A stretch of DNA of 64,000 nt, taken from positions 1-64,000 of the forward strand of contig JAYJMM010000019.1 of assembly GCA_037349105.1 (NCBI GenBank), written 5' to 3'. The translations under genes were made by a program, and so were the position numbers. The notes under the pieces are model-generated. The model ran no database searches, was not told the DNA's origin, and was given only the letters and a program-made list of their open reading frames with translations. This DNA comes from Limnomonas spitsbergensis. Lineage: Eukaryota; Chlorophyta; Chlorophyceae; Chlamydomonadales. Each line of letters opens with the position of its first letter. The first letter of the stretch is position 1. Below, one piece after another: positions 35,895 to 53,976 of this stretch.

Positions 35895-35917
35895 TGTCCT
35901 TTAGAAAGGGACGAAGT
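35895..35917 (+). promoter_or_regulatory. putative primer-binding site (self-primer type)
   Basis: The first 23 nt after the LTR begin TGTCCTTTAG and are the exact reverse complement of LTR positions 35468-35490. Complementarity stops at the LTR border on one side. The usual tRNA-primed site begins TGG, and this one does not. In Tf1/sushi-type elements the first bases of the RNA pair with a site adjoining the 5' LTR and are cleaved to prime DNA synthesis; the geometry here is the same. Confidence 0.55.
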
Positions 35918-36591
35918 GGATCTAGCCTGATCAGCCTGATTTGCCAATTCCTGCTAAGGGTGCTTGTGCAGCGAGATTGGAATTTTGTTTGTATGCAAAC
36001 AACCTTGGACAGCATATGAATTGCACTTTGCTGTGGTAATCTCCATAGAGAGTGCCAAGTTAAGCCCTGAGAATCACTAAGAGTGGCAACTTAGTGTTGA
36101 GTCCAGGAGAGGCTTGAGGATCTGGCTGTGGATTTATACACCCAGCAGATAATTCCTGTATGACTGCAGATTGAGATCAGGTGGATCCAATCATTCATCA
36201 TTGACAGAAGTAAACTTGTTGACAGATCATCCAAGGTTAAAATTTTGTGGTGTACCAAAGGATCCCCGCAGGCGTCAGAGAGGAACTGACACAGCGCAAG
36301 ATCCGCCAGGAGGCAGACATCCGCAGGGGACGTGCGCCAGCTAGAGGCAGCCCAGCCAGCAAAGGTGGGAAGGGGCTAAAAAGGGCGAAGGAGGATTCCG
36401 CCAGATACAAATATTAGTGAGCATAAAAGCAGAGGGCAAGGCCTATCGCGCAAAATTGCTGTACCTGCCGTCCAGCCTTGACTAGCAGTTCCTCACCAGG
36501 TTGCAGTAAGGATAAGGAGCAGAAGCCTAAACGTTAGCAGGTTTTGTAGGGGGTGTCGCCAGCACGCCTGCAGAACAGTGCGGTTCGTAAA
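35918..36591 (+). other. untranslated leader of the giant element
   Basis: About 670 bp between the putative primer-binding site and the first in-frame ATG of ORF1. An in-frame TAG at 36547-36549 closes the frame upstream. I see no coding signal; it may hold packaging or translation-control structures, but nothing specific is visible. Confidence 0.6.
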
Positions 36592-39500
36592 ATGCATGTA
36601 GAGATGACAGGCATAGATCTAAACCCCGATAGGCACCCGCACCCTGACGTCCAACGGAGGAGTGGGCGTCTGAGGGGGCTGGAGCCGGGAATAGACCTAA
36701 AAAATGCTAGTGCTGAGATTGTAGCAGAGGCCCTGTTGATAGCGGAAAAGCTGCCAGAGCCAGTAGAACCGCCTGCAGAGGATTGCAGGGTACGTGAGCC
36801 AGACCGTGTACCACCCAGAGGGGCAGGGGCGCAAGCAGATGGTGCAGTACTAGTAACACTAAAAAGCATTGGTCGAGGGGGTCCGTTGCCCGCTGGTTCC
36901 GACAGCTGTCTGAATTTCGAGCAGGGGCAGACTCAAGCGGGAACCCCAGAGTTGATCTTGGATCAAGCAACGGAAGCATCCCAGAGCTGTGACACGCGAC
37001 AGAGCAGTGCACCTGAGGCCGAGCCGCAGCAGAGCCTGCCCAGGGTGGCAAGTGTTACACAGCAGGTTGAAAAAGAGCCCAGCCAATCGGGTCTAAGGGC
37101 AGAAGTAGCCGCAGCTTCAGACAAGTTTGCAGGCTGGCATAAGACCTGCGAAGTCAAACCTCGAATAAAGACGGAGGGAGATGGGGCCAGGATTGTGCCT
37201 GCAGAGGTCAAACACGAGGAAGATGAGCCACAGCCAGCAGCAGGCAGACAGAGCTCGCATGCAGGCAAGGACAGGGAGAAACCAGCTGAGCCGGTAGGGA
37301 AGCCTTGGGCTGATCTATCCGAGGAAGAGCAGCCAGACCCAGTTCAGGAAAAGCAGGGGCAGCAGACTACAGCAGAACTGCGTCCCGTGCAGCAGCTGCA
37401 GCCGCGCAAGGCACTGGTTAGAAGAGGAGCTGGATCCACAGTCTTCGGCACACCGCTGTCCAGTTTTCCACCCAGCGTGAACAGACCTGCGCAGACGTCC
37501 AAGGAGGGATCTGGCAGCCAGAGGCAGAGAGAGCCAGAGCACTCGGAGACCGGGGGAGTCGCATGCGGAAATGAGGAGGTAGAAGGGCCGATCGGTTGGG
37601 CAGGAATTGTGCAGTGGGCAACAGACCTGTGGAAGCAAGTGTGCTCCAGGACGTTCTTGCATTTCCAGGACCAGGTCACAGCCATTGAGGAGTTCAAGGC
37701 CCATCATCTGCGGGGATGGGCAACAAAGGCCATGTTGGGTATCCCCCACACAGGTCTGGACAGGGCGCTACTGTTAGCCGCCCTTGGACAGGTATCCAAG
37801 GGAAGGACGGGACACGAAGCAGCCAGGGCTGTTAAAGCCTTCGCAGACGAATGGTGCAAAGAGGTCACAGGAGACCAGGAGGAACCTGGGTCAGAACCAG
37901 AGGATGAGGAGGACCAGGTGTGGGAAGGATTTGAAACAGGGGTGCAGCGGCCTGAGGGGATCAGGGAGGTGCAAAGGTGGCAGCAGCAGGCAAGAGCCGC
38001 GCCAACACCAACACTCAGATTTGCAGCCTTCGAGGTCAGCAGCGAGCCCAGCCTCAGAGGACGGCCAAGGGGCAGGGAAGCACCCAGAGCCAGCAGTCCA
38101 GCCGCCAGCGAAAGGGCGGAATTGACTAGCCAATCACTTGCCAGAATGGCAGAGCAAAGCACAGCGACACGCAGAGCAAGCAGGCAAGAGTCTTATGAGT
38201 TGCTGCGCATAGTCGAGGACAAAGAGAACGCATACCAGGAAACCCAGGTGGATTACATCAAGGAATTCCTGAGGAACAGGCAGCCAGGCGCGGCAAGAGG
38301 AGCTAGGAGGAATGAGCCTGCAGGCAGCGCACAGAGCAGTGGCCCAAAAATACAGGAGACCAAAGAGGAAACACAGTCTGATTCCTACGCCAGGAATTAC
38401 ACAGGCGGGACGCAGCCAGGTCGGCAGAGCCGGGAGCCGCCCAGGGGGCTGGCATACTCCAGGGAACAACCTCACCAGCATAGCCAAGAGCCGCCCAGAG
38501 GACAGGCAGAGGGCAGGGAACAGCCAAGCCAGCAGAGCCAGGAGCAATTAAGGGGACCAGCGGAACGCAGCAGAGGTGTGCGGCAGGAATGGCAAGACCA
38601 GGAGCTGCCCCGGGGACAGGCAGAGCCCGGCAGAGCACAGCCGTGGAGACCTGGATCTGACAGCAGACCAAGCAGAAGCGAACTAGAACGACCGCCACCC
38701 GAAGGAAGTAGAGGCTCGGCAGGCAGAGCGGGCAGACAGCCATCACGAGACGCTCACGATCATGATGAGGATTATAACAGACATGACAGGTATCAGTCAG
38801 GCCGCAGCCCATCGAGGGGCGGCAGTGGAGGACCTAGGTCGCGGTCAGGATCAGTAGATTCGGGACCAGGGGGAGCGGACAGACGCAGGCCAGGAGCCAG
38901 ACAGGAGTCCAGCGACCAGGAAATGAAAAGGCTCGATCGGGAGCAGGCGAGGGTGAACCTGCAGCTGCAGCAACAGATGGTATTGCAGCTGGCAGGGGTA
39001 GCCAAGGTAGCCAAGATCCCAGCCATCCAAGGCAACGTACAAGTCCTGGATATGTCACACCCAGGAGCGGTTGCAGCCAGAAAGTATTGCCAGGCGTGTG
39101 GGTACTGGGGATCGCACAACAGGTTGGCAATGTCAGATGACCAACCAGCATTGGCCGTGGTGGCAGGTGAAATAGCTGGATCATGCCAGTCGCCGTCAGC
39201 TATGACGTTGCTGATCAAGTCGCTGGTCAAGCTGTGGGACAGCAAGCCTGCCAGCATGAGGCCGCTGATGGCAGCCATCAGGGCAGCGCCCCACGCAGGA
39301 AACAGAATTGCCAGAGAGGTGGAGCGGATCGGACAGCAGTGGATAGCCCCAGCGGAGCAGCAGGGTTGCGAAGCTTCGCTACTCACGTTGTGGATCAGGG
39401 TGGTCCAGGAGGAAGTGGGAAAGCCAACTTCAGAGGAGAGGACGGCCATCACCAACCTCAGGCTAGGAGTAAAAACTACTCTAGACCCGGACGTCAAGCC

Positions 39501-40623
39501 AGAGGAGACGGTGGAAGCATTTGCTCACAGAGTACTGACAACGGCAGAGTTGCTGCAGATCTCAAGGGATGCAGTAGATCACTTCGGCAGAAGCCACTCG
39601 GTCTCGCGCATGTTCCATGACGGACTCCCAGCGGTTGCTAGAGCCAAGCTGAGCAAGTTCGTTATGACGGTGCCAGGGTATCTCAGCATGAGCGATGAAG
39701 ACCAAATCGCAGTACTCACGCAGCAGGTGGTGCTGTGGGAGAGGTTTGCCCTGGAAATGGGTGACCTGGGAGGTACCGGCTTCAGGCAGATAACCAACAG
39801 CGGGCCTGGCCAGGGAGAGGCACAGCCCAACAGGGGCAGGAGAGAGAGAGCAGGACAGTGGGAGATGCGAACACGCCTTGATGGACTTGTGCACCCCACA
39901 GGCTCAGCAGCAGTACCACAGGCGCGGATGGATGGTAAACCCAGAGGAGTTACCTGGGTGGACCAAGCAGGGGCGGCAAATTACAACGCTGAGGGTGGCT
40001 CAAGCGCAGCCAAGGCATGCTACCAGTGCGGTAGTACGTCGCACCTAGCCAGGGATTGCAGGGCGCCCAGGGCCAGGGATGAGCGCAGACCTATGCCCCT
40101 GGTTACAGACATCACACCTGGACCGGCCAGACAGCCGCAACAGCAGTATCCGCAGCAACAGCAGTATCCGCAGCAACAGCAGTATCCCCTGCCGCCAAGG
40201 CCGCAGCAGGGACAGGCGGCAGGCAGGCCGTATGACAGGAATCAGAACAACAGACAGTATCCTAGGCCTGGGCCTGGCCAGGGAGGTCAGGCGCAGCAGG
40301 CAGCCCACGTGTCGCATCTCAGCAATGCAACGGGGCAGGCTGAGCCAGAGGGATGGCACCAGACCATGGCAGAGATGCTCAGCGAGTCCGTAGCACTCAT
40401 GACGCAGGTTGGGCTGGTACCCAAGCCTGCAGGTTTCAAGCAGGCAGTTCATAACGCCCGTCCTAAGTCGTTTTTGCCAGAACCTTTGCAGGAGGAGGAA
40501 CCAGTACCAGGATTCACGGTACAACCCTCCAGGAAGGGAGCAAAGAGGCTGGTATTGAGTAAACTAGCTGACGATATGTCTGACATCCGCCTACAGGTGT
40601 TCAAGTTGAACGAGCGGCTCTGA
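36592..40623 (+). CDS. gag: ORF1: very long Gag-like structural protein
   Basis: Predicted 1343-aa retrotransposon Gag, which would package element RNA into cytoplasmic particles. I start at the first ATG (36592); the frame is open from a GTG at 36553 after an in-frame TAG. Residues 1-600 are acidic, Q/P/E-rich and probably disordered. About 607-770 is an Arg/Ser/Glu-rich region with degenerate repeats (REPPRG, REQPHQ, QSQE). About 800-1060 is helix-prone and capsid-like. A CCHC zinc knuckle, CYQCGSTSHLARDC, lies at 1143-1156, followed by a Q/P/Y repeat (about 1183-1207). A lone CxxC (CQAC, from 833) precedes the capsid-like part. It ends with TGA at 40621, and the same frame stays open into ORF2. 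Typical gypsy Gag is 300-500 aa, so this one is exceptionally long. The zinc knuckle and position make Gag likely; capsid homology is inferred. Confidence 0.8.
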   Translation: MHVEMTGIDLNPDRHPHPDVQRRSGRLRGLEPGIDLKNASAEIVAEALLIAEKLPEPVEPPAEDCRVREPDRVPPRGAGAQADGAVLVTLKSIGRGGPLPAGSDSCLNFEQGQTQAGTPELILDQATEASQSCDTRQSSAPEAEPQQSLPRVASVTQQVEKEPSQSGLRAEVAAASDKFAGWHKTCEVKPRIKTEGDGARIVPAEVKHEEDEPQPAAGRQSSHAGKDREKPAEPVGKPWADLSEEEQPDPVQEKQGQQTTAELRPVQQLQPRKALVRRGAGSTVFGTPLSSFPPSVNRPAQTSKEGSGSQRQREPEHSETGGVACGNEEVEGPIGWAGIVQWATDLWKQVCSRTFLHFQDQVTAIEEFKAHHLRGWATKAMLGIPHTGLDRALLLAALGQVSKGRTGHEAARAVKAFADEWCKEVTGDQEEPGSEPEDEEDQVWEGFETGVQRPEGIREVQRWQQQARAAPTPTLRFAAFEVSSEPSLRGRPRGREAPRASSPAASERAELTSQSLARMAEQSTATRRASRQESYELLRIVEDKENAYQETQVDYIKEFLRNRQPGAARGARRNEPAGSAQSSGPKIQETKEETQSDSYARNYTGGTQPGRQSREPPRGLAYSREQPHQHSQEPPRGQAEGREQPSQQSQEQLRGPAERSRGVRQEWQDQELPRGQAEPGRAQPWRPGSDSRPSRSELERPPPEGSRGSAGRAGRQPSRDAHDHDEDYNRHDRYQSGRSPSRGGSGGPRSRSGSVDSGPGGADRRRPGARQESSDQEMKRLDREQARVNLQLQQQMVLQLAGVAKVAKIPAIQGNVQVLDMSHPGAVAARKYCQACGYWGSHNRLAMSDDQPALAVVAGEIAGSCQSPSAMTLLIKSLVKLWDSKPASMRPLMAAIRAAPHAGNRIAREVERIGQQWIAPAEQQGCEASLLTLWIRVVQEEVGKPTSEERTAITNLRLGVKTTLDPDVKPEETVEAFAHRVLTTAELLQISRDAVDHFGRSHSVSRMFHDGLPAVARAKLSKFVMTVPGYLSMSDEDQIAVLTQQVVLWERFALEMGDLGGTGFRQITNSGPGQGEAQPNRGRRERAGQWEMRTRLDGLVHPTGSAAVPQARMDGKPRGVTWVDQAGAANYNAEGGSSAAKACYQCGSTSHLARDCRAPRARDERRPMPLVTDITPGPARQPQQQYPQQQQYPQQQQYPLPPRPQQGQAAGRPYDRNQNNRQYPRPGPGQGGQAQQAAHVSHLSNATGQAEPEGWHQTMAEMLSESVALMTQVGLVPKPAGFKQAVHNARPKSFLPEPLQEEEPVPGFTVQPSRKGAKRLVLSKLADDMSDIRLQVFKLNERL

Positions 40624-40641
40624 GCGCTGTCGTTCACCACG

Positions 40642-41725
40642 ATGCCCATGGGAGGAGACAGCACCGGCCACAGGGGTGAGACTAGTAACACCAGGCCAGA
40701 GGGTAGAACGGTGACGGCTGCACCCAAGCTGCAGTATTTCAAAAATGACAGAAGCAACCTGGAGCAGTGTGTGGGACTTATGGTCAATGGTAAGGTCCTG
40801 GTGGCTCAGAAAGCACTCATGGACTCCGCATGCACGTGCCATGTCATCACTGTCAATATTGCAGAGCAATTAGTTGCAATGGGGGCGGAGCTGGTGCGTA
40901 CAGACGAGAAGATTCGTACCACAGACAATGCAGGGGCAGATCTGTATGGAGTACTGTTCATTTATGTGGTGTATGGATACGGAGGGCCCAATGCCATTAT
41001 GGAGCCCACGGTGGTCAGGGTCGTTAAGACACCACCGGATGCATATGAGCACTTGGTAGGGAACCCAGAGTTCCTCAAGTATAACGGGGTCTTAGAGGCA
41101 GCAGGAAGGCTGACCTTACGGCCCAGAGAGGGCCCACAGAGAGTGCAAGGGGTCAAGGACCTTACGCTGCCACTACTGCGGGCATCTCCGGCAGGGGGGT
41201 ACCAGGCAGCAGCAGTGGCATGGGCAGGAATTCAGTGTGGATTCGCAGAAAGAGAGGGGTGGCCAGCTGCAACAGTTGAAACAGAGCACGAACCGCTCTT
41301 ACAGCATTCCATGGCCACACGCGCAGGTACCGCTATGAGGGCCGAACAGGGCGCAGGACCCAGCAGCGAGCCAAACCCCAGGCTACAAAGGCGCAGGCCG
41401 GTGCCAGTCGAAGCAGCAGTGGAAGAGACCGCCACACCAACCGCAGAGGAGATGGCAAGAGCGCGCAGAGCCGCGGAACTCTCTGACGTTGAGAAAAGGG
41501 CGGTCAGGGACTTCATGCCAGCATGCCCCGCCTACCCGTGCGCCTTGTGCGGAAAACCAGACAAGCACGCGGTGGAAGAGTGTGAGAGGAGGATTCAGGA
41601 CTTTTCGCGGACACCCGAAACAGCGCTTGCGGTGCAGGCAGGGCCGCCTACAGCGCAGAGGAGGGGATACGGCACAGCTGCAGCCGATAGAGCTGCACAG
41701 GCAACTTCAACGCGCAGCAGGGGAG

Positions 41726-41759
<34 letters not shown>

Positions 41760-44700
41760 GCAGCAGCTGCAAAAGCAACCGCAGGTGGCAGGGCCTAGAG
41801 TGCAGCAGGCCAGCGACGGCAAGGGTAGGCAGGCGCAACAGCAGCAGGGGCAAGGAAAGCCAGGGGCAGCAAGGGCCCCCGCGCAATCAGCCAGCAACAG
41901 CGAAGATGAGGCGCAGGAAGCAGAGGAGGAGGAAGATTGCAGCGTAGAGAAGGTTCCAGAGCCAGGGACCAGCCCACAAGACAGGCAAATCAACAGGCTG
42001 GCAGGGCAAGTCAACGGGCTGAAAAAGGCCCTAAGATGGAGAGAGCGGCAAATGTGGAAGCAGTCAGCGGAATTTGTGGATTACCTGAAAGGCCAGCTGG
42101 CCGGGTGGAAGGTCATCACGGATGGTCAGCAGGTCATGACAACGGTCCAGCGAGAGTACATCCTGCGGGCAGATGAGCTGAAAGGGCTGCAGGAGGCCCT
42201 GGGACTACAGCACTTGGGGGGCCCGCCAAACCACGGGCAGCCGCTTCCATTCGAAACAGACCCAGAGTTGGCGGGGTGCGTCAGGGCAATGTTGGCGACT
42301 CCGTCCCCGCTACGAGACGTGGACAGCGAGCATTCCGGCATGGAGGAGCCGAAGAAGCGCAGTCCTTCTAGCAGCGACGAGAGCGGCTCAGGGGACAGAA
42401 GGCTACGACGGCGCAACAGAAGCGCGCAAAGGGCCATCAGTGAGGAGCGCCAAGGGGCGGTGCCAACGCCGGCAGCCAGGACCCAGCGGCAGGGCGCAGG
42501 GAGGCGCAGCAACAGCGAGGAAAGGAGCAGGGACCGCAGACAGCGGTCACCATGCAGGGACCAGCCCAGGGGCAGATCCAGGGAACGGCACCATGCTGAG
42601 GTTGCCAGGCCTTACAGGCAGGGGCAGGAGCACCAGAGAGGCCCAGGCCCCGGGCCGACAAACAGAACCCTGGCAGAGGGCAGCGGGGCGGCAGAGCCTA
42701 GGCGTCACCTGGGACCGCGCCATGGTGGATTGTGCTTCAAGTGCAATCAGCCGGGGCACTTTGCCAACGAGTGCACCAACCCGGAGCAGGCCGGGCTGAC
42801 AGGCGACAGGCCAGGGGCACCTGCAGGCCCAGCGCGGGGCTATGGAACCTGGGGCCCAGGCAGGGGCCAGGGGATGCCCATGGAGAGCAGGCGCAGGACC
42901 TTCGATACTGCCATGGGAACTCCCAGTGCAAGGGACTTCCAGCAGGGGGCAGCAGGCCCCAGCGCGTGGCCAGAACCGCCAGCGCGACAGGAACCACCGG
43001 AGGGCGAGCAACCAAGGTGGGAGGGGACAGGAGGCCACACGTGCTTCATGACAGGCCACATGGAAATTAGCCAGGACAGAGATGCCTACCAGGCTGAGGT
43101 CAGTCAGGCAGGACCAGTTCAGGTGGCCCCTCAGAGGGTGCCAGAAGGGCAGGTAGCCAGTCAGGTAAGCCACTGGGCGATGGCTGTAGAGGCGTTAGCC
43201 ATGAACCATTATGGGACTATGCCTGCAGGGTCGGCCAGATCCGTAGCACATGCGTTGGAGTTCTTGAAGGATCTCCAGAGGAGGGGGTGCCCAGCTCCGT
43301 GTGTAGGATGGCCAAATCTGATGCAGAGGTTCCTAGACAGGGAATGGGACAAGTATGATGAGCAGTGGGATGAGTTTGAGAGACGCGAGCGGGAGGCAGT
43401 ACCCCAGCACGACGTAGACGGGTGGGATACCGATTCAGGATCCAACCTTTCAGCAGGCAGATATGAGCCTCAGGAACCCTCGCCCTTGCATGAAAGAGAG
43501 TTTGGCGTGTTATGTCCAGGTACCCCGGAGGGCAATCAAGACACAGGCAGAGGGGTAGCGGGAGCAGCCGCCGAGACAGAGGAGCCACACAGAGCGGGGT
43601 CGCGACTCCCAGCGGCCAGAGGGACCGCAGCAGGGAGCCAGCTGGACGCTCGGGCGGGGCCCGTTAGGACCCATAAAGGCACCAGCTCTCGGTGCAATGC
43701 TTGGGGAGAAATCGACGAGGACGAAGAGACACAGCACGGCAGCGAGAGGGAAGGGAGGTCTGACGCAAGGGGCGAGGACAGGCAGCTTGACCAGTCCTTC
43801 AGCAGAGACAGGTCCTACAGCAGAGAACGCATCTACATACAGCCGTTCCCGCAGTCGCTGCCAGCAGGCGAGCCCTTTGTGCAGTACTTCCGCCTGGGGG
43901 AAGAGATGCCAGAGGCGTCCACCTCCGGGGCCATGCTGACTATGCCAGGGGAGTGCAGGGACGGGCCATGTCGGTTGCAGAACCATAGGCTCCTGGACGG
44001 CGGAGAGCAGACATGTGTTGACAGGGCAGCAGCCATGCAGGCAGTTGCCAGGATGATTTTCCCGTGGGTCGCAGTGACAGCTGTCATGCTGGGCGCTGCG
44101 CTCAAAGGATACATCCTGCCCAGCACAAATATAGCAGATTACATGCAGAGGGGATGGTCGCGGCACCCCATCTATGCACACTGCGTTAGCGAGATGGTGA
44201 GTCTCGCCATTGCAGCAGGCATCACAGCGGTGGATGCAGCATGCTGGGCGCACCCAGACATGCCAGACATTGCGCCAGCCGAGGGGATGTGGCAGGGCGC
44301 GCAGCCAGGATTCATGCGCACACCGTGGGCGATGGATTGTGTCCGTGAGCTGATGGGGCACCCAGCCCTCAGAGACCGCGCATTTTATGTGCCAGTCCAA
44401 GCCATGGGCGAGTTCGAGAGATTTGTGGAAACAACAGAGCAGGCCCCAGTGAGGGCAGGGCTGTGTCACCTAGGCAGGCCAGGGCGGTGTGAGGCGACCA
44501 TAGAGGCGTCCATCGTCATCCCCAGGACGGTCGCAGGACAAGCAGTGCCGTGGGGGCCAGCGCCAGGGGACGCCAGGGCAGCCATTCCAGTCCAGCAGCT
44601 AGTAACTTACTACTATGAGGAGATGGCTGATGAGGAGTTGCCCGTTTCATCGGCATGGATCCACATGCACGCGACTCACGATGATATGCCCGTCTACCTG

Positions 44701-45129
44701 TTTGCAAGGCACCAGCAGGACGTGGCAGTCACTAAGTGCGCGTCAGTAGACGAGGCGGAGTTCCATGCCTATACCTACGCTAGGGGAGCAGACCCGACAG
44801 TGTGGACGCTCATGCTAATGGCGCTGCAGAGGGTCCTGCTCCCAGGACAGCGATCAGCGGCCATGCGGCATGTGTGGGGCGTAGAGGATCAGTGGGCGCC
44901 TACAGAGGTAACAGCCTGTCCAACATGGCCTTACGGACCCCAGCAGTCGCCAGCATCAGGAGCCATGTGGGAAGGAGAGGAAGAGCTGGCGAGCTCGCCG
45001 TTCGCAGTAGAACGCCTGGCAGCATATGTGCACCAGTGGGTGCGTCAGGAGCGGAGGGCGTGGCACGACAACATGGCCAGCAGCGTGCTGCCCTATTGGC
45101 AGGCTGACGTCATAACGACGCAGTTGTAA
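40642..45129 (+). CDS. ORF2: retropepsin-like protease, second zinc knuckle, unknown C-terminal domain
   Basis: 1495 aa from ATG 40642, in the same frame as ORF1 and only 18 nt after its stop. Near the N-terminus ALMDSACTCHVI places Asp61 in a retropepsin-like active site, with Ser-Ala where DTG/DSG is usual. HLVGNPEFL farther on resembles the family's second conserved strand. Expected role: cleavage of the polyprotein. A 13-Gln run begins at about residue 363. A basic, R/S-rich region leads to a second CCHC knuckle, CFKCNQPGHFANEC, at 698-711. From about 1105 to the end a better-folded region of ~390 aa begins with Cys-rich CRDGPC and includes a hydrophobic stretch (IFPWVAVTAVMLGAAL). I do not recognise it. 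Stop TAA at 45127; the frame continues open into ORF3. Confidence 0.75.
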
Positions 45130-45144
45130 GCGCACCCAGCAGGG

Positions 45145-48100
45145 GTGCGCACGCTGCACCCTCTGTTCAGAGGAGCAGGGGAAGTAGGCATCGAGGAGGA
45201 GTTGGAGGACTTGAGGAACCAGCCGAGTAGGGGACATGGGCCGGTGGGCAGGCGAGGCGCCGATGCAGAGGAGCCAGCGGCAGCCACCGACGGCCCTGTC
45301 CAGGATGAGGAGCCGGAATGGACCCTGGTGGCATTTGTAACATTTGGGGCGGCAGCAGCCTCATGGGAGCTGCTGGAGTATGTGGACGACTTGGGGGTAT
45401 CAGCACTGGAGGCTGAGCCTAGGGGACGGGCAGAGCCCCATGCGCCCCTGGACAGTGTCAGCACACCGCCCACGGAGGACTCAGACAGCAGGATCCCAGA
45501 GCTCAGCGACAACGTTTCAGAGGGCCCACCACCACTGGTTGAGATCACCGAGTCAGATGAGGAGTGGCACGAGGCAGGAGCCAGGCCCTCGGACCAGGAT
45601 AGCGTCACCAGAGCAGAGGCTCGGGATGCAGAGGGCAACTACGTGCCAGCAGACAGCGGCCCAGGACCAGGAAGTCCAAGGTACGGCATGGTGGGAGAGC
45701 TGCCACAGCTGAGGCGCGCGTGGATGCGCGGCGTCTTTCAGGAGCAGGCAGCAATGAAAGAGCGCAGAAGCAGGAGGGCCGCTATAGAGCTTGGTAACGG
45801 AATCACGCTGGAGGAAGAGGCAAACCAGGTCACAGCGGGGATCAGCCTTCAGCAGGCAGCAGACCAGCGCGCTCACAGGCCCGAGGAGGCAGCAGCAGAC
45901 AAGAAGAGCAACGGGCGCCCAGGATACCCACAGATCCGCCAGCCAGCACAGACAGCGGCACAGGGGCCTTGGGGTGACCCAGCAGAGTACAGCACGGGAC
46001 GCTGGGTTGCAGTGCTCAGGAACTTTGTAGATCAGCTGGACGTGCTACGAAGGCAGGAAATGGGGCAGCAAGAGGCGGGCCAGGAGGCTAGCCTGCTGTT
46101 CCGACTTAAGATGCTACCACAGCCCGATCCGGACCCCAGGATGGGAGGTTACAGCAGGGCGGTCAGGGAGCTACAGGAGGAGCTGACGGAGAGAGTATCA
46201 GCCCTCTACACGGGGAGAGCAGAAGGAACGGACACCCAACAGCCGTCGGACAGCCGCAGCAGACAAGCCCAAACCGGCAGGGGCGAGGACCTCGCCAGCA
46301 GGGTTGCGGGCGCGCAGGAAACCATACGACGGAGCTGTGGGCAAGATGAGCCCGCGGGTGCAAGCAGTAGTAAGGCTGTGCAGCGCGCCAACCACAGGCA
46401 GGAGAGAACGGCACAGTACAGCACAGGACAGATCCCAGGAGCAGGGCCAGAAAGGGCCAGTGCAATTTGGGCTGACACTGCCGAGTTGCAAGGAAAGAAT
46501 TCTAAGAAGGCCAGGAGACGCGCAGGAAAGGCGCAGAGGGCGGCCGCGGACAGGAACCGTGGCAGCAGACCAGGAATGGACTGCCCAGCCCTGCCACTCA
46601 GGATCAGCCAGGTAGACCTGGAGATCACGTGGGCCAGAGGACAGCAGCCGCCAGCGCAGAGTGCAGAGCCATGCGTTCAGCCCGCAGAACAGTTACCGCA
46701 GCAACCCATGAGGAAGATGACAGCGTGCAGAGGACTCCTCACCTGTACAGCAATTAAGGGGATCCTGACGGGGACGCTCCAGCTGATACTGGTGTGGCTC
46801 ATGCTGTCGGTGTGTGTGCCGGGGGCGCGAGCTACCGGGCAGGGAGTGCGAGGAGGAGGATTTACAGCAGGCCAAGGTGCTTTTGTGTCTGGAAAGGAGG
46901 CAGCAGCAAAGCTGTCGTCTGGATGGTTACGCCCACAAGCAGTCAGCCCCATGGGGGCCGCCAGCAGGAGGGGTGCATGCAGCCAGCAGGAGAGATGGCA
47001 CAGCGGCAACACCACTGGCGGGGAGGAGCTGCCCGCGGAGGACGACCCGCAGGCGGCTGTGGTGATCGACATGTTCCAGCCGGGGGGAGTAGTGGAGCCA
47101 CCTGCAGAGTACGTCAAGACCAAGGAGGGATGGCTGCTGGGCAAGCACCCCGACTTCACTGCGGAGCAGCAGGAGAGCCTGGAGCAGAGCCTCAGGGATC
47201 GCCAAGGAGCATTCGCTTACTCCATGGAGGATCTACCAGGCTACTGCGGCACGCAGGGTGAGTTTACACTGGCTTTAGAAGACGAGGTCAGTTCGTGCTT
47301 TCAGAAGTCCAGGGATATGCCACCGCCTAAAGCAGCAATTTTTAAGGAAAAGTGTCAGCCGATGATTGAGGCAGTTATCATAGTCAAGGTGCCCCAGGGG
47401 GGGCCTATCAAGTTTGCGGCCAACTCAGTAGTAGCAGCCAAAAAGAGTGCTGAGACTGGGGAGTGGACAGACCATCGAATAGCGCACGATATGCGCAGGT
47501 TAAACTTGCGTACAGCCAAGCAGGAATTTGCCATCCCCAGGATGGAGACTATTTTTCAGAACCTGGGCACTGCCAAGATATTCAGCAAGGTTGATCTCCG
47601 GTCGGGGTTCATGCAGATCCCTATAAAGGTCGAGGACCAGCCTAAGACAGCTTTCTGGATGGGACCTGAGCTGTGGATGTACACAAAGCTCAATTTCGGT
47701 CTGCGCAACGGGCCTCCTTTCTTTCAGCGTATGATGGAAGAAGAGATTGCCAGGGCAGGCCTGAGTGCGTTCTGCGTAGCATTCATTGACGATTTGCTAG
47801 TGTACAGTGACACACCGGCAGAACACATCAGGCATGTGGAGCTGATGTTGGACATGCTCCACAATGTAGGATTAAGGGCGCACCCCGACAAGTCCCTGTT
47901 TGGGTGTGCAACAGTAGAGTACCTGGGTCACAATGTGTCGGCCCAGGGGCTCACGCCGCACGCTGCTAAGATAGCAGCAGTTATGGCGCTGCCAGAGCCT
48001 GCATCGGTGAAAAACATTCAGGAGGTCATGGGATTCTTGAATTTCTACCGGTGCTACGTCCCGGACTTCTCGAAAAAGGCAGCATGCATCAACGCATTGC

Positions 48101-48507
48101 TGGTCCAGGGGGTCCCGTTTGTGTGGGGGCCAGAGCAGTCGCAGGCGTTCCAGTTGATTAAGACAGAGATGTGCGAGGGCGGGAGAGTCCTGCGCATACC
48201 AGATTACAGTGGGACAGGACCAGACGGCAAGGGGCCGCCAAGGCCGTTCTTATTGTACACAGATTTCTCTAAGCAAGGCATAGGCGCAGTGCTAGGGCAG
48301 TGTGATGACAGCGGGCGGGAGTATATGGTGGCATGCACATCCAGATCCCTGAACAAGAGCGAGAGGAACTATTCCTCGTTCCAGGGGGAGATGCTGGCCG
48401 CAGTGTATGCAGTAGGACATACCGCCACATGCTGTTTGGGTGCAAGGTGCATCTCATCACTGACCATGAGCCGCTCACTTACCTCATGGACAACCAGACG
48501 TTGGTAG
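45145..48507 (+). CDS. pol: ORF3: N-terminal extension, reverse transcriptase and most of RNase H (frameshifted end)
   Basis: Copies element RNA into DNA. The frame opens right after the TAA at 45127 and its first codon choice is GTG 45145. No ATG occurs in the first ~180 codons, so readthrough or fusion to ORF2 is more likely than independent initiation. About 1-520 is charged and unrecognised. About 522-565 (from ATG 46708) carries a signal-peptide or membrane-like hydrophobic run (LQLILVWLMLSVCVPGARA). Reverse transcriptase spans about 649-960, with catalytic Asp817 (KVDLRSG) and FIDD at 880-883, where YxDD is usual. The connection domain is followed by RNase H with Asp1040 (LYTDFSK). After about 48413 the frame is wrong: the RNase H continuation (TDHEPLTYL) lies in another frame, indicating a one-base indel, so the last ~30 codons listed here are not native. 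Confidence 0.88.
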   Translation: MRTLHPLFRGAGEVGIEEELEDLRNQPSRGHGPVGRRGADAEEPAAATDGPVQDEEPEWTLVAFVTFGAAAASWELLEYVDDLGVSALEAEPRGRAEPHAPLDSVSTPPTEDSDSRIPELSDNVSEGPPPLVEITESDEEWHEAGARPSDQDSVTRAEARDAEGNYVPADSGPGPGSPRYGMVGELPQLRRAWMRGVFQEQAAMKERRSRRAAIELGNGITLEEEANQVTAGISLQQAADQRAHRPEEAAADKKSNGRPGYPQIRQPAQTAAQGPWGDPAEYSTGRWVAVLRNFVDQLDVLRRQEMGQQEAGQEASLLFRLKMLPQPDPDPRMGGYSRAVRELQEELTERVSALYTGRAEGTDTQQPSDSRSRQAQTGRGEDLASRVAGAQETIRRSCGQDEPAGASSSKAVQRANHRQERTAQYSTGQIPGAGPERASAIWADTAELQGKNSKKARRRAGKAQRAAADRNRGSRPGMDCPALPLRISQVDLEITWARGQQPPAQSAEPCVQPAEQLPQQPMRKMTACRGLLTCTAIKGILTGTLQLILVWLMLSVCVPGARATGQGVRGGGFTAGQGAFVSGKEAAAKLSSGWLRPQAVSPMGAASRRGACSQQERWHSGNTTGGEELPAEDDPQAAVVIDMFQPGGVVEPPAEYVKTKEGWLLGKHPDFTAEQQESLEQSLRDRQGAFAYSMEDLPGYCGTQGEFTLALEDEVSSCFQKSRDMPPPKAAIFKEKCQPMIEAVIIVKVPQGGPIKFAANSVVAAKKSAETGEWTDHRIAHDMRRLNLRTAKQEFAIPRMETIFQNLGTAKIFSKVDLRSGFMQIPIKVEDQPKTAFWMGPELWMYTKLNFGLRNGPPFFQRMMEEEIARAGLSAFCVAFIDDLLVYSDTPAEHIRHVELMLDMLHNVGLRAHPDKSLFGCATVEYLGHNVSAQGLTPHAAKIAAVMALPEPASVKNIQEVMGFLNFYRCYVPDFSKKAACINALLVQGVPFVWGPEQSQAFQLIKTEMCEGGRVLRIPDYSGTGPDGKGPPRPFLLYTDFSKQGIGAVLGQCDDSGREYMVACTSRSLNKSERNYSSFQGEMLAAVYAVGHTATCCLGARCISSLTMSRSLTSWTTRRW

Positions 48508-49148
48508 GCCAGCACGCTAGGTGGGCTCTCATGCTTCAAGAGCTAGACATTACCATTGTCCACCGCTCAGGAGCATGCCACCAGAATGCAGACATCCCGT
48601 CCAGATCCCCCCTCCCATCCTCAGCCGACCGCACAGGGGCCAGGCTTGATACAGTCGCGCCCGAGCCAGCAGCCAGGGAGGAGGCAAGTGGGAAGCAAGT
48701 AGCTTTGCTCACAGGGTTGGGCAGAGTGAACCAGTGGCATGCAGACCAGATAGTGCGCATGGCGCAGGAGGGCAGAAGGAGAGTACAGATGTTGCGAGCT
48801 GCAGAGGCAGCTTGCGTGACAGCACCGGTGGGGCAGGAGATATCCTCTGCCGCCACTGACGATGATGAACAGGCGCAGCCTGTCAGTACAGCAGAGCAGG
48901 CGTTCAGCAACAGGGAGCGATCCAGGACGATGATCAGTGATGTTCTTGCTGACTTGCCTCGGGTGACGCCCCCTCATTCCCTTGCAGGCCTGGATACAGC
49001 TTGCCTGTCAAGTGGGGCTGTGCGGGCCATGGAGACCGAAGGAGTCGTCCTCTTCGAGCCTTTTGGAGGTATGTGCTCAGGGCTGGAAATGGTACTCAGG
49101 GCAGGTATCCCAGTAGCCAGTGCAGTACTTGTATGCAGATATCAGTGA
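48414..49148 (+). CDS. pol, shifted frame: RNase H end, linker and methyltransferase motif I
   Basis: Continuation of pol one base out of frame with ORF3. It begins with the rest of RNase H (YRHMLFGC, TDHEPLTYLMDN, HRSGACHQNADIPSR). A ~170-aa low-complexity linker follows. It then enters the S-adenosylmethionine-binding motif I of a cytosine-5 methyltransferase, LFEPFGGMCSGLEMVLRAGI (about 49053-49112), which corresponds to the DLFxGxGG glycine loop of the family. The frame ends at TGA 49146. The downstream motifs continue one frame over from about 49115, so a second single-base indel splits the methyltransferase between motifs I and II. Neither indel is in a homopolymer. They may be genuine decay or assembly errors; the near-identical LTRs make errors worth checking. 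Confidence 0.75.
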   Translation, partial: RTYRHMLFGCKVHLITDHEPLTYLMDNQTLVGQHARWALMLQELDITIVHRSGACHQNADIPSRSPLPSSADRTGARLDTVAPEPAAREEASGKQVALLTGLGRVNQWHADQIVRMAQEGRRRVQMLRAAEAACVTAPVGQEISSAATDDDEQAQPVSTAEQAFSNRERSRTMISDVLADLPRVTPPHSLAGLDTACLSSGAVRAMETEGVVLFEPFGGMCSGLEMVLRAGIPVASAVLVCRYQ

Positions 49149-50328
49149 GGAAGTCAGAGAGATCGCAGGGGGTCGCCTGTTGCAGTTGCACAAGAGATTC
49201 CCCCAGTTGCTTCCGGTCAGAGCGTTTGATAAGGCTTTCAGAGCGTTGCCGCAAGATGTGTATGCCATTACGGCAGAACACCTCAAGGAGGCGGGTGCCC
49301 AGGAGGGGCGCCCGTGGTTCATGGTAGCAGGCTGGGAGTGCCAGGACCTTTCGTCAGCTGGCAAGGGGCGGGGGCTCGCGGGAGAGAGAAGCAAGTCTTT
49401 CTTCCCGTTAGTCAAGGTGTTGGGTACTCTGCAGTTCCTGCAGGGACCTAGGCCGCCAGCGTACCTGATTGAGAATGTAGCAATGCAATTGAATCAGAAG
49501 AGTGAGAAGGCCAGTGTTGAGGCTTTTCAGGAAGTGTGCAGGATTCTAGGGACACCGGCGTTGTTTGACGCAGCGCAGGTGGGGTCTTACGCCCACCGCA
49601 CCCGCAACTATTGGGGGAATATTGCCCCCGCAGCAGATATTGAATTTGTGATTCGTGCGTCGACCAGACCCCACGAGGTGATTGTAGACGACATTCTGGA
49701 CAAGGGCAGCAAGGCCCAGGTAGTATCATGTCCGGACAATGGGGGGTACCGCATCAATGTCACAGGGCAACCCAGGAAGGTGCTGCCGTGTTTGATGGCC
49801 ACGCCCTCATCATATGCTTTCCGGAACGGGCAAAATGGGATGGTGTACAGGCCCATGGGGGACTTGCAGGAGCCCAACGCAAACGAGCGTGAGCGCGCCA
49901 TGGGGTACGCTGTGGGGTCCACATTGCCGCGCCCAGACTTCCCAGAGGCAGCCAGACGGGCAGCCTTGGGCAGGTGCATGGATTCATGGGCACTCAGTGC
50001 ATGGCTCAATGTGGCACTCGAGTGTGCTAAGATCATGCCAGCAGAATTGACGCGCAGGGCAAAGCTGCCAGGCCAGGACAGGGACCCAGTGCTGGGGGCG
50101 ACTTTAATGTCCAGCCACTATGCCCTTGCTACTGCAGGAAACGCGTGCTCTGGCAGCGGGGAAGCGGCCGCGTCATACAGACAGTGCCTGGGAGAATCGG
50201 CCGCGGCAGACTGGGCCGACGCGGCACAGGAACCAGGTGGGAACGCGTCTGAGGCACAAGTTGAGGTTGCAATCAGAGTAACCAGGGAAATAGAGAGTGA
50301 GAAGGACCAGCCAGGTTGTCCTGCATGA
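49120..50328 (+). CDS. cytosine-5 DNA methyltransferase domain within pol
   Basis: C5-cytosine methyltransferase catalytic region, expected to transfer a methyl group from S-adenosylmethionine to DNA cytosines. Motifs in order: II (YADISEEVRE) from the first residues; IV GWECQDLSSAGKGRGL with candidate nucleophile Cys74 (family form is PCQ, here ECQ); VI YLIENV with Glu118; VIII SYAHRTRNYWGN (about 156-167, the RxR signature); a target-recognition stretch; then late motifs ERERAMGY and RRAALGRCMDSW, like the usual LGN segment. Motif I sits in the preceding frame. Length and motif order fit a whole catalytic domain with no separate regulatory domains. It lies between RNase H and integrase and ends at TGA 50326, with the integrase in the same frame. 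The motif style (QDLS, AGKGRGL, GERS) looks more like bacterial/phage enzymes than DNMT1 or DNMT3. Confidence 0.85.
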   Translation: MQYLYADISEEVREIAGGRLLQLHKRFPQLLPVRAFDKAFRALPQDVYAITAEHLKEAGAQEGRPWFMVAGWECQDLSSAGKGRGLAGERSKSFFPLVKVLGTLQFLQGPRPPAYLIENVAMQLNQKSEKASVEAFQEVCRILGTPALFDAAQVGSYAHRTRNYWGNIAPAADIEFVIRASTRPHEVIVDDILDKGSKAQVVSCPDNGGYRINVTGQPRKVLPCLMATPSSYAFRNGQNGMVYRPMGDLQEPNANERERAMGYAVGSTLPRPDFPEAARRAALGRCMDSWALSAWLNVALECAKIMPAELTRRAKLPGQDRDPVLGATLMSSHYALATAGNACSGSGEAAASYRQCLGESAAADWADAAQEPGGNASEAQVEVAIRVTREIESEKDQPGCPA

Positions 50329-52149
50329 CCGTCGGCTAGGGTTGATGTGTGGGCAGATGAGCCCGTCTTGAGGTTTCTCCGTGAAAAGACTTATGTCCAG
50401 GGAACAGAGCTAGGAGAACAGACTAGAATACAGCGCAGAGCAGCGCCATTCCAGTGGGAATCAGAGAGGGGAGGAGTCCTGATGAGACTCATGCCTGATG
50501 GTAGACGTTGTGTGGTGCCCAGGCCAGAAGACAGGCTAGCAGTGATCCAGACAGCGCATGCAGGTACGGGCCATTTCGGCAGCCACCGCACGGCTTTCAT
50601 GGTCATGCAGCAGCATTGGTGGCGGGGGCTTCGAGCAGCAGTCAAGAAGGCGGTGCAGGAATGCGGTGTGTGTGACAGGGCCAGGGCATCCACGTTCAAT
50701 CACATACAGCCCAACCTGCACCCGCTACCCATTGAGGGGTTGTTTTTCCGGTGGGGAGTGGACCTGTGTGGTCCATTCACGACCACTTCCAGGGGAAATC
50801 GGTTTGTGATGGTGTGTGTGGAGCATTACTCCAAATGGGTGGAGTTAATCCCCATTCCAAGCAAGGCGTCTGATGTGACGGCCTTGGCATTCTTTCAAAA
50901 TGTTGTTGCACGATTCGGGGGATGCGCAGAGGTGGTGACAGACCAGGGAACAGAGTTCCAGGGTGAATTTCAGGACATGTTGTTGGACTGCTTCATTGAC
51001 CATCGCACCACTTCTGCCAACCACCCCCAGGCAGACGGGCTTTCCGAGAGGGCTGTCCAGACCCTCAAGGCAGGCCTGCGCAAGTGCTGCGAGGAGGGCA
51101 GCAGCGACGAGTCCTGGGACAAGATGGTGCCCTGGGTAGCCCTTGGCTTCCGATGCTCGCCGCAGCAGGCCACACGCATGGCGCCGTACGAGGTGCTGTT
51201 CGGACAGAGACCCACCTTCCCCTCCAGAGTGGGAGCGGACCTCTGGAGCACAGCCAAGGTGGCAACGGCAGAGGAGGCAGCAGACCTGCTTTTGGCCAGA
51301 GTGGCCAGGATCAAAGAGGCACTGCCAGTCGCGGGTGAGCATCTAAAAATTGCGCAGCACCGCGACAAGCTGCGATATGCACGCATTCGTGGGGGAGGGT
51401 ATGTCCCCCAGGTCAGGCGTTTTGCAGAGGGAGATTACGTGTATGTGAAGTATTCGTCAGAGCGACGCAGCCTCGATCCCAAGGCCAGGCCTGAGATCCT
51501 CAGGGTAAAAACACTGGGGGCGACGGGAACTTTGGTGCTGGAAGGGGCAGATGGCCTCACAGTTACAGAGAATGCAGTCAATTGTTCTCCATGCCACTTG
51601 CCCAACCTCAGGGGAGTGGTTGATTTCAGTGGAACCAGACCCAATAACAGCCTGTCATGCGAGGTGTGCCAGCTGCCCGATCGCGGAGAGGTGATGCTTT
51701 TGTGTGATGCCTGCAATACAGGTTGGCACATGGACTGCTTGGTACCAGTACTCGAGGAGGTGCCTGAGGGCGAGTGGTTGTGCCCACACTGCAAGCCGGA
51801 AGACAAGGGAGCTGGGCCCGCTGCAGTAGCAGGGCCCCCCACAGAGGAGCGCAGTTTACATGTCCAGGGGCGACCGAGCCCAGCGGCCAGAGCGGCTGCC
51901 AGGACAGCCCAGGAGGCCGACGTCATGGACAGGCCTGAGGTGGAAGTCATGGCCACCAACCCAGCAACAAGGCAAATGGAGCGGGGCATCGCAAGACCAA
52001 TGGCGAACGGGTTGTATGACATCTCGTACACCACTGGCCGGGGAGAGGCCAATGTCACCCCGAGAGCAGTTACAAGAAGGGCCAAGGTGGCCAAAGAAGC
52101 AGCAAGGGAGGAAGAGGAGTCAGCCCTCGAGGATTTTACCGGGACCTGA
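50329..52149 (+). CDS. integrase with C-terminal PHD finger
   Basis: Inserts the element DNA into the host genome. It is in the frame of the methyltransferase after one TGA. The first start-like codon is GTG 50347 and the first ATG is near 50480, so readthrough or a mutated sense codon is likely. Numbering from 50347: HHCC zinc module His71, His76, Cys106, Cys109; RNase H-like core with Asp139 (GVDLCGPF), Asp199 (VTDQGTEF) and Glu234 (DGLSERAV), giving 34 residues between the last two. A small beta-rich region (about 340-420) matches the gypsy integrase tail. A PHD finger follows, Cys4-His-Cys3: Cys438, 441, 453, 456, His461, Cys464, 479, 482. PHD fingers read histone H3 tails, so a role in insertion-site choice is plausible. 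The last ~110 residues are low complexity. There is no chromodomain. Confidence 0.88.
   Translation, partial: PSARVDVWADEPVLRFLREKTYVQGTELGEQTRIQRRAAPFQWESERGGVLMRLMPDGRRCVVPRPEDRLAVIQTAHAGTGHFGSHRTAFMVMQQHWWRGLRAAVKKAVQECGVCDRARASTFNHIQPNLHPLPIEGLFFRWGVDLCGPFTTTSRGNRFVMVCVEHYSKWVELIPIPSKASDVTALAFFQNVVARFGGCAEVVTDQGTEFQGEFQDMLLDCFIDHRTTSANHPQADGLSERAVQTLKAGLRKCCEEGSSDESWDKMVPWVALGFRCSPQQATRMAPYEVLFGQRPTFPSRVGADLWSTAKVATAEEAADLLLARVARIKEALPVAGEHLKIAQHRDKLRYARIRGGGYVPQVRRFAEGDYVYVKYSSERRSLDPKARPEILRVKTLGATGTLVLEGADGLTVTENAVNCSPCHLPNLRGVVDFSGTRPNNSLSCEVCQLPDRGEVMLLCDACNTGWHMDCLVPVLEEVPEGEWLCPHCKPEDKGAGPAAVAGPPTEERSLHVQGRPSPAARAAARTAQEADVMDRPEVEVMATNPATRQMERGIARPMANGLYDISYTTGRGEANVTPRAVTRRAKVAKEAAREEEESALEDFTGT
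51658..51795 (+). other. PHD finger domain
   Basis: Residues ~438-483 of the integrase ORF. The motifs CEVC, LLCDACNTGWHMDC and WLCPHC give complete Cys4-His-Cys3 spacing, including the conserved Trp two residues before the last Cys pair. LLCDAC and GWHMDC are the most typical parts of the family. An acidic patch on the finger (CDAC with EVPEGEW) is usual for H3 readers; ligand specificity cannot be read from sequence. Confidence 0.9.
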
Positions 52150-52881
52150 AGCCTGGAGCGGCAGGGCCGCTGAGCACGTGACGTCACCCACGCCGTAGCT
52201 GGCAAGGAGCGGGCAGGCACCTACAGAGCAGAAATGCAGACGCAGTGCGGCTTGTCCTAGTACCCAGTAGGCAGCGGGCCGGCAGCCAGCGGACCGAAAA
52301 CGGAAGATGCAGGAGTAGAGTTACGGCAGCTTAATGAAAATTTGTTCCTCAAATACCGTGGCAGCAAGGCTACAGTAGTACATAAGTTATGAAAATGATG
52401 AGCGAGGAGAATTAGTCAACTCGAGCAATTCTAGCACAGCAGGGGGCAGATCACGCTGCTACGGCGCACATTTTCTGTGGCCTTTAAAGACCAGGCGGCT
52501 ATGGCGCAGTGGGGCGAGAGCAGCGGTTGTTCTTAGCTTGACCTGATAACTTTGAAATTTCACTGTTTGCTAGCCAGTAGTGGGCTGAACAGCTTGAGTT
52601 TGTAGGGTTCTGCGCATTGCGCTTCAGCTGAAACTCGGTTGATTTTTTTTTATTTTCCTGATTGCAGAATGCCTGAACCAGGCAGATTCGTAGAAGGCCT
52701 GAACCAGGCAGATTCGTAGAATGCCGGAACCAGGCAGATTGGTAAAAGGCCAGAACCTGGCATATTTGCTGATGATGATTTGAGCTTGTACGTACATATT
52801 TTTCCAGAAGTTTATTTCAGTACCACCCCTTTTTCCGGCTCCCCGCGCATGCCTGGAGGGCTTAACGCTGGGGAGCGGGGG
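52150..52881 (+). other. 3' untranslated region of the giant element
   Basis: About 730 bp between the pol stop (TGA 52147) and the 3' LTR. It contains no ORF of interest, a T-rich tract (52642-52656), the four-copy 26-bp repeat at 52668-52768, and a G-rich stretch just before the LTR. Confidence 0.7.
52668..52768 (+). repeat. 26-bp tandem repeat with internal hairpin, four copies
   Basis: Units of the form AATGCCTGAACCAGGCAGAT plus TCGTAG, the last one degenerate. Each holds GCCTG-AAC-CAGGC, a 5-bp stem with a 3-base loop, so the RNA could form four short hairpins in a row upstream of the 3' LTR. Confidence 0.85.
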
Positions 52882-52884
52882 GCG
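52868..52884 (+). promoter_or_regulatory. candidate polypurine tract
   Basis: The G-rich run GCTGGGGAGCGGGGGGC directly abuts the 3' LTR start, where the plus-strand primer of an LTR element is expected. One or two pyrimidines interrupt it, so the call is tentative. Confidence 0.5.
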
Positions 52885-53746
52885 AGTAAAGTAGTAGGGG
52901 CGGTACCCACGAGACGGAGACTTCCAGGCAGAGATATCCAGTTAGGGACTTCCAGATACAGTTATCTTGTTGACACACTCTTGTCTGAAGTACAAGGAGC
53001 ATGAGTGTACGGTGATGTACCGTGTTTGTGAGTAGAGGACACCTCTCTAAGGTGTCCTGACCGGAGTTTACGGTATTTACCATATTGGCACGTTTACTGC
53101 TTTATGGTGCGACAGCTGTCACAGTATATTACCGTATACGTGACAGAACCGTTTAGACCGCAGTTAGCGGCCGCGGAGCCTCCGCAGCTTATCTGCGGAG
53201 TCTCCGGATTTGAGCTGAGACCTAGAAACCCGCTTACGCAGGATTAGTTTGACAGGTTCTACCGTACTCTGAACTGGGCTTGCCGGGTCCCTGTATCCCG
53301 GCAATTGCCTTGGCTAGTTACTTCGTCCCTTTCTAAAGGACAGACCTCTATTTGTAACAAGCACCGGCAGTCTTTGAGACCAGCAGCTTCCATATAAGTC
53401 AGTACCTTAACTCGAGTCAAGCCTAGCTCAGCCTCCGCTGATCTAGCTGGAGACAAGTACCCCAGTAAGAGAACCGAGACTCTGCAGAAGAAGAAGTACG
53501 CAGCCTCGTCCCGTCCGTCTCTCCGCGTGTTACGCGGTAAGTGTCCTTAACATAGCCCTGCTGGATCGCGACCAGACGGCCAGAAGGCCTATGCCCCCAA
53601 AGTCAGTTGCTATATATACACAATTCCACCTAGCTGCTTAACTCGAAGAGCACTCGCAGCCAGTGAGTAGTCACTGAGCCTGCCCGTAGGCGTCCGTCAC
53701 TGCAGTGAGGAAAGAAGTCCGCCACGGACCTGAAGCGCACCTCGCG
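52882..53746 (+). repeat. 3' LTR of the giant element
   Basis: About 865 bp. Its first 233 bp (52882-53114) recur at 53744-53976 and its last 498 bp (53249-53746) recur as the truncated 5' LTR. Borders are GCGAGTAAAG at the start and CACCTCGCG at the end, with a 3-base ambiguity because GCG occurs at both. The ends are not the usual TG...CA. The start is inferred from the tandem junction with the next partial copy. Confidence 0.8.
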
Positions 53747-53976
53747 AGTAAAGTAGTAGGGGCGGTACCCACGAGACGGAGACTTCCAGGCAGAGATATC
53801 CAGTTAGGGACTTCCAGATACAGTTATCTTGTTGACACACTCTTGTCTGAAGTACAAGGAGCATGAGTGTACGGTGATGTACCGTGTTTGTGAGTAGAGG
53901 ACACCTCTCTAAGGTGTCCTGACCGGAGTTTACGGTATTTACCATATTGGCACGTTTACTGCTTTATGGTGCGACA
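53747..53976 (+). repeat. partial second LTR, tandem with the 3' LTR
   Basis: Repeats the first ~230 bp of the LTR (compare 52885-53114) with no difference I can see, immediately after the 3' LTR end. It is cut off at GGTGCGACA, where the mariner-associated repeat begins. It looks like an LTR-LTR junction from a tandem insertion or recombination, later truncated. Confidence 0.8.

Follow-up and report, generated by a model that had tools for sequence, protein, structure and literature searches.

Among retroelements that carry a cytosine DNA methyltransferase (DNMT), the closest described system is KnitGypsy-Dnmt3, presented in the available passages of its source as a DNMT-bearing gypsy element of one charophyte, Klebsormidium nitens (de Mendoza et al. 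2018, PMC5890265). An opinion piece mentions, in the part available and with no detail, green-algal gypsy or DIRS elements that bear a methylase (PMC6338049), and the available passages of a survey report no non-chromovirus gypsy elements in algae (PMC6317226). Here, we analysed a 64,000-nucleotide stretch of the chlorophyte Limnomonas spitsbergensis (contig JAYJMM010000019.1, positions 1 to 64,000, hereafter the window), which contains a DNMT-bearing element at 35397-53976. We consider it rather likely that this element is one defective member of a multi-copy family of large gypsy-type retrotransposons with an old DNMT3-like domain and an unusual joined-end integration route. Its insertion probably follows a path that ordinary elements of this type do not take.

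The methyltransferase domain and its distribution

The window copy is 18.6 kb long with a truncated left end, and its coding part consists of six + strand frames within 36550-52149, along which the Pfam matches follow the order two CCHC knuckles, RVT_1, RNase H, DNA_methylase, H2C2, rve and PHD. An earlier note, made from the sequence alone, had described a C5 methyltransferase between RNase H and integrase, in the reading direction of the polyprotein, within an element of about 18 kb with two zinc knuckles and a PHD finger, and this architecture was borne out. A significant PF00145 (DNA_methylase) match at 49117-50325 (E 3.7e-6, 27 bits against a curated cut-off of 22) lies between the end of RNase H (48542) and the start of H2C2 (50527), all domains are on the + strand, a PHD finger is present (51658-51792, E 1.2e-10), and a full-length copy of the same family, family 1, measures ~18.9 kb (L010/L023/L024). 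Both knuckles are present, but the first (40015-40062) scores slightly below its cut-off, with 19 against 20.8 bits. Motif I of the methyltransferase (VVLFEPFGGMCSGLE) stands just upstream of the PF00145 match in a different frame (48309-49148), so that the domain spans 49017-50043 across one frame change. The features of the window copy are as follows.

35397..35894, + strand: left repeat A1, without its first ~132 bp; 1 mismatch in 498 against 53249-53746
35468..35490, + strand: self-primer-like segment inside A1; 23 nt complementary to the site right after A1
35895..35917, + strand: primer-binding-site-like tract, directly 3' of A1
36550..40623, + strand: Gag-like frame; zinc knuckle at 40015-40062
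40624..45129, + strand: second frame; protease-like motif at 40816-40848, zinc knuckle at 42730-42780
47473..47937, + strand: reverse transcriptase (RT); RVT_1, E 1.5e-22
48124..48542, + strand: RNase H, spanning a frame change; RT_RNaseH_2 and RT_RNaseH
49017..50043, + strand: DNMT3-like cytosine-C5 methyltransferase domain; PF00145, E 3.7e-6; frame change near 49.1 kb
50527..50688, + strand: integrase H2C2 zinc-binding domain; E 2.6e-11
50752..51027, + strand: DDE integrase core (rve); E 3.8e-10
51658..51792, + strand: PHD finger; E 1.2e-10
52870..52881, + strand: G-rich polypurine-tract-like stretch directly 5' of B1, read from the sequence
52882..53114, + strand: repeat B1, ending ...GCGACA; 100% identical to 53744-53976
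53115..53116, + strand: GC spacer between B1 and A2; centre of the palindrome GACAGCTGTC
53117..53746, + strand: full repeat A2, starting TGTCAC
53747..53976, + strand: repeat B2, right element end ...GCGACA; the repeat identity starts at 53744

The stretch absent from A1 of the window is present at the left end of other copies. In-frame stops close the frames of the window copy at 40623, 45129 and 50328, and its reading frame changes near 48.4 and 49.1 kb. In other copies, intact frames reach 5,315 aa. The motif LMDSACTC (40816-40848), which we take to be protease-like, has no Pfam match.

A PF00145 profile search of the 260.2-Mb, 124-contig genome, in which the window is the start of contig C19, returned at least 665 candidates and at least 123 scored methylase matches, both lower bounds that include a few unrelated DNMT genes, and dozens of these matches, on many contigs, sit in open frames of 1,000-5,300 aa. 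Eight loci of family 1 and six of a second family (family 2) were taken for comparison, their methyltransferases being 90.5-94.0% and 39.5-40.4% identical, respectively, to the piece in the window. The order RT, RNase H, DNMT, H2C2, rve, PHD recurs in the two family-1 frames and the one family-2 frame scanned, and the three DDE blocks of the integrase are seen in both families. The examined copies of both families keep the DNMT in the same place, all of them having been found via this domain, a search in which copies devoid of it could not appear.

Beyond this genome, three protein searches (8, 25 and 40 matches) yielded 63 distinct protein relatives, 32 of which hold RT and/or integrase in the same protein as the DNMT. 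Their named sources are Chlamydomonas eustigma, Monoraphidium neglectum, Chromochloris zofingiensis and Closterium (NIES-65, NIES-68); no Klebsormidium sequence stands among the named relatives, and no viral relative was found in phage records or in two viral-contig scans, a partial test of viral origin. Seven polyproteins combine RT, DNMT and integrase (P0014, P0015, P0016, P0020, P0024, P0025, P0028), and a precomputed domain list gives a PHD finger in all of them except P0028. The named algal relatives are pieces that associate RT or RNase H with DNMT (P0008, P0030, P0033) or DNMT with part of the integrase (P0026). An alternative order, DNMT before RT, was observed in P0011 (Closterium) and P0032, and a CCHC knuckle precedes the DNMT in P0029, P0031 and P0032, accompanied in P0031 by a protease match.

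In a DNMT tree of 44 rows, built by a quick method, rooted on one long DNMT3A branch and leaving out matches with less than 265 aa of DNMT as well as three copies, 36 rows formed one group (99% in the Shimodaira-Hasegawa-like approximate likelihood ratio test, SH-aLRT). All rows with RT before or integrase after the DNMT fall inside this group, and those with DNMT before RT fall outside. The DNMT tree placed family 2 in a group with C. eustigma (94%), and so did the RT tree (99%), which leaves out RT pieces below 140 aa and three copies. For family 1, the RT tree gave a group with P0013 and P0015 (99%), and the DNMT and integrase trees gave no supported placement. These topologies fit, without proving it, a long joint descent of RT and DNMT. 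To carry a DNMT within a gypsy-type element is probably a long-established and conserved feature, shared by at least two families of one genome and by relatives in other green algae.

By sequence profile and predicted fold, the methyltransferase is nearest to DNMT3: the best PDB matches of the family profile were DNMT3A/B, followed by plant DRM2 and then HhaI, and the structure predicted for the domain of the L010 copy (mean predicted local distance difference test score 94.1) aligned best with DNMT3B/3A. The usual form of motif IV is PCQ, with a proline before the catalytic cysteine. Motif IV, which the earlier note had counted among the methyltransferase motifs, keeps the catalytic Cys in the window but reads GWECQ. 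Among 64 aligned rows (P0033 and five further copies left out), 59 cover the site and 58 of these have the cysteine, preceded by Glu (46/59), Pro (10/59), Ser (2/59) or Met (1/59); ENV and the RxR of motif VIII are, like the cysteine, almost invariant.

Across the eight family-1 copies, Nei-Gojobori counting gave a mean dN of 0.0116 and dS of 0.173 for the DNMT. The pooled ratio of nonsynonymous to synonymous differences (pN/pS) was 0.077 for the DNMT, 0.017-0.028 for RT, RNase H, integrase and the post-integrase part, 0.168 for the linker and 0.329 for the PHD finger, with seven copies available for the integrase and later parts. In the six family-2 copies, simpler counting gave 0.102 for the DNMT, 0.009 for RT plus RNase H, 0.014 for the integrase, 0.160 for the linker and 0.079 for the PHD finger. 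As judged from these ratios, the DNMT is under purifying selection in the compared copies, with a weaker constraint than RT and integrase. It may be an active cytosine methyltransferase, and the self-silencing or insertion marking evoked in the earlier note are putative roles only.

Three other DNMT genes of the genome (L001, L002, L003) show observed/expected CpG ratios of 1.05-1.15; L002 and L003 have HMG-box-like tails and look unlike retroelement-type DNMTs. These last two genes are perhaps of viral origin.

Split repeats, target duplications and priming sites

The element had been presented as a long terminal repeat (LTR) retrotransposon, and its gypsy type stands, with the RT-RNaseH-integrase order, a DDE integrase and 4-bp target duplications, all features of Ty3/gypsy; the plain LTR pair does not. 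No complete terminal LTR pair was found, the left end being A and the right end B-GC-A-B, and a plain pair is ruled out by the split of the A and B repeats in the mapped copies. These split direct repeats are shared with DIRS elements. The tyrosine recombinase of DIRS has no Pfam match in the six window frames and three pol frames scanned, a set that leaves aside the upstream part of family 2, and an assignment to DIRS by recombinase was rejected on this result together with the presence of target duplications.

In family 1, a full A at the left end and B-GC-A-B at the right end were found in 7/7 copies, the element ends being TGTCAC and GCGACA (TGT...ACA). The family-2 copies C19, C41 and C90 follow the same A-coding-B-GC-A-B plan, and a further copy, C3, breaks off inside A2. 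Target duplications of 4 bp flank 13 of the 14 copies with both standard ends read, nine of ten in family 1 (TATA, TGTC, TGGT, AGAA, CACC, CCCA, ACAG, CCTA, CAAA) and four of four in family 2 (GTTG, CGAC, AAGT, CTAC). One family-1 copy (L029, L030) is nested inside the A repeat of another, with the target duplication AGAA.

The two internal junctions of the right end were compared among copies. B1-GC-A2 is invariant, GACAGCTGTC being found in the window, in 7/7 family-1 copies and in 4/4 family-2 copies. The A2|B2 joint of family 2 takes five forms in seven copies (C19; C41 = C58 = C124; C90; C111; C102), with ~9 extra bases in C90 and a short duplication in C102, and an eighth copy, C99, has a shortened B. 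Among 20 junction stretches read, 11 had A and B, three had A without a full B (L057, L060, L061), one had B only (L066) and five had neither (L047, L054, L055, L059, L064). Reading further out revealed A|B for the copy of L047 (L072) and nothing for those of L066, L054 and L055; L059 and L064 were dropped from the set. To judge from these junctions, the A|B variation is as expected for end-joining.

Putative priming sites lie at the boundaries of these repeats. In family 1, the tract right after A1 is complementary to a segment ~200 nt into A, over 23-24 nt in 6/7 copies (23 nt in the window) and 17 nt in the seventh. In family 2, the tract after A, of unrelated sequence, is complementary to positions 121-135 of A in 3/3 copies, over 15 nt of which 3 lie inside A. 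When the 60 bases around the site were shuffled, the observed match was reached in 0/2000 trials for L024 and 1/2000 for C3. Both families thus fall within the published definition of self-priming, a complementarity to the 5' repeat over at least 10 bp that starts 0-5 bp after it, as given in the available part of PMC6317226, where a cited title adds that the self-primer of Tf1 is not removed. In the family-2 copies C19 and C3, too, B1 follows a G-run.

Family-2 copy C82, whose left end was not found in our mapping, ends in an inverted piece of A: in L060 read with L067, the end of A runs into the reverse complement of A 135-1. This inverted end forms a snap-back whose starting point is the self-priming pairing.

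Proposed integration route and rival explanations

We propose that reverse transcription would begin by self-priming directly 3' of A1 and that second-strand synthesis would start at the G-rich tract before B1, so that the cDNA would carry B-GC-A as its LTR. The ends of this cDNA, namely the end of A and the start of B, would then be joined by end-joining, as a circle or in post-insertion repair, and the integrase would act at the palindrome ACA-GC-TGT inside one LTR and not at the LTR ends, generating A-coding-B-GC-A|B. With the primer-like site bounding A at its end and the G-rich tract bounding B at its start, A|B has the make-up expected of the U5|U3 joint of a two-LTR circle. The internal-site reading is, in effect, the two-LTR-circle integration route, once proposed and then abandoned for retroviruses according to the available passage of PMC11054761, and, if true, every insertion would carry a newly made end-joined U5|U3 scar. 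That a DDE integrase naturally uses an internal, palindromic, circle-junction-like LTR site, and that the element's own DNMT3-type enzyme could methylate the intermediate, is a proposition we hold evenly poised. More tentatively, the methyltransferase might methylate the new DNA of the element, be it cDNA, circle or fresh insertion, which might help it to pass or settle in a methylating host, and the PHD finger might help to choose chromatin.

Several observations weigh against this proposal. The palindrome occurs twice in a two-LTR circle, and a cut at the second one would give A|B-GC-A-coding-B; a single order was found in 10/10 copies that have the four repeats and both ends mapped, which implies that the integrase must choose or that the model is incomplete. 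The A2|B2 joint of family 1 is alike in 14 of 16 cases, window included, with variants in L023 and L048 only. Family-1 copy C41:8961146 has no target duplication, family-2 copy C80 ends in A with no B in the ~1.1 kb read beyond, and in C36 (L066, L071) B is preceded by neither A nor a G-run. Family-2 copy C120, A-coding-B without the second A-B, was considered as a one-LTR-circle product and this was dropped, given a 322-bp deletion before its B. Regarding the enzyme, Glu (window family) or Met (family 2) stands before the catalytic Cys where Pro is expected, the pN/pS of the DNMT clearly exceeds the values for RT and integrase, and low ratios are favoured by the choice of copies through methylase matches, mostly in long frames. 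In addition, CpG depletion was considered as a trace of self-methylation, and the CpG observed/expected ratio of the elements (0.52-0.58) lies inside the range of the flanking DNA (0.52-1.13).

An unlikely, though serious, alternative is a replication of the type modelled for DIRS/Ngaro elements, in which the RNA spans nearly all of A-coding-B-A-B, the internal B-A joint templates the ends and A|B is inherited, a DDE integrase having replaced the recombinase. The repeat order is the one described for split-direct-repeat elements and stated for KnitGypsy-Dnmt3, and both the single order of the ten fully mapped copies and the uniformity of the family-1 joints agree with inheritance. However, closely similar family-2 copies differ at A|B by small indels, one with ~9 extra bases, and A ends at a primer-like site while B starts at a G-rich tract, like U5 and U3. 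As for the enzyme, its C5-methyltransferase fold may no longer methylate DNA and may serve as a nucleic-acid-binding part of the polyprotein or act on RNA, a possibility that we likewise regard as doubtful. The replacement of the motif IV proline by Glu, Ser or Met in 49/59 covered rows and a DNMT pN/pS of 0.08-0.10, several times that of RT and integrase, speak for it, as does the fact that de Mendoza et al. observed no activity of the KnitGypsy enzyme in yeast, a result that they call inconclusive in the passage available (PMC5890265); the almost invariant catalytic Cys, ENV and RxR, together with a confidently predicted DNMT3 fold, argue against it. Finally, the broken state of the window copy, beside telomere-type repeats near a contig end, could evoke a passenger or an assembly artefact in one copy. 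This explanation is already refuted and keeps a negligible probability: dozens of open-frame copies lie on many contigs, and the same order recurs in polyproteins from metagenomes and in fragments found in other algae. A one-off insertion or chimera is likewise ruled out by the many genomic copies, the two families and the metagenomic polyproteins.

This arrangement, probably old and conserved and present in many open-frame copies, opens two questions to testing: the benefit that a mobile element draws from encoding a cytosine methyltransferase, and the possibility that integration via an internal site explains why split direct repeats occur together with a DDE integrase.

Surroundings of the element and comparison with known systems

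On the left, 19 exact CCCTAAA units (35261-35393) directly abut the truncated element, 35 kb inside the contig, which could reflect a healed break, an interstitial telomere or a misjoin. Further upstream, positions 1-33800 form a long G-skewed stretch with many overlapping - strand frames, and a minisatellite with a 44-bp period occupies 33000-33800. On the right, a 300-bp repeat begins at 53977, exactly where the DNMT element stops, and recurs at 56431, flanking HTH (helix-turn-helix)-transposase-like remnants (53977-56730). A separate gypsy chromovirus with RT, RNase H, integrase and chromodomain, without DNMT, lies on the - strand at 57477-60248.

We recognised no paper on a green-algal DNMT-PHD family or on its terminal joints, in a coverage that excluded subscription journals and preprints, and the available passages on split direct repeats with an integrase describe DIRS-type or tyrosine-recombinase elements. 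The following comparisons rely on the available parts of the cited sources. The Chlamyvir chromoviruses are algal gypsy elements with a chromodomain, where the present element has a PHD finger (PMC6317226). The self-priming gypsy elements Tf1 and Sushi share with it a site, directly downstream of the 5' repeat, that can pair with a stretch lying further upstream within this repeat (PMC6317226, PMC4600332); unlike it, they are described with ordinary LTR pairs, and the passages mention no DNMT. DIRS, PAT and Ngaro elements display the same A1-internal-B1-A2-B2 repeats (PMC8547959, PMC8969392, PMC4157794) and encode a tyrosine recombinase, whereas this element has a DDE integrase, target duplications and a GC that separates B1 from A2. 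SymbioDIRS-Dnmt3 and SymbioLINE-Dnmt of Symbiodinium are also retroelements encoding a cytosine DNMT, SymbioDIRS with the A-coding-B-A-B repeats found here (PMC5890265); they are, however, tyrosine-recombinase DIRS or LINE elements, by contrast with the DDE integrase and target duplications of the present one. KnitGypsy-Dnmt3, compared by description only, has in common with it the gypsy domains, a Dnmt3-type domain in Pol, DIRS-like repeats and a DNMT likewise under purifying selection (PMC5890265). Relative to this closest system, the element of the window differs by its chlorophyte relatives, its PHD finger and family-1 frames of up to 5,300 aa, and the present study adds the analysis of target duplications, self-primer and joints.

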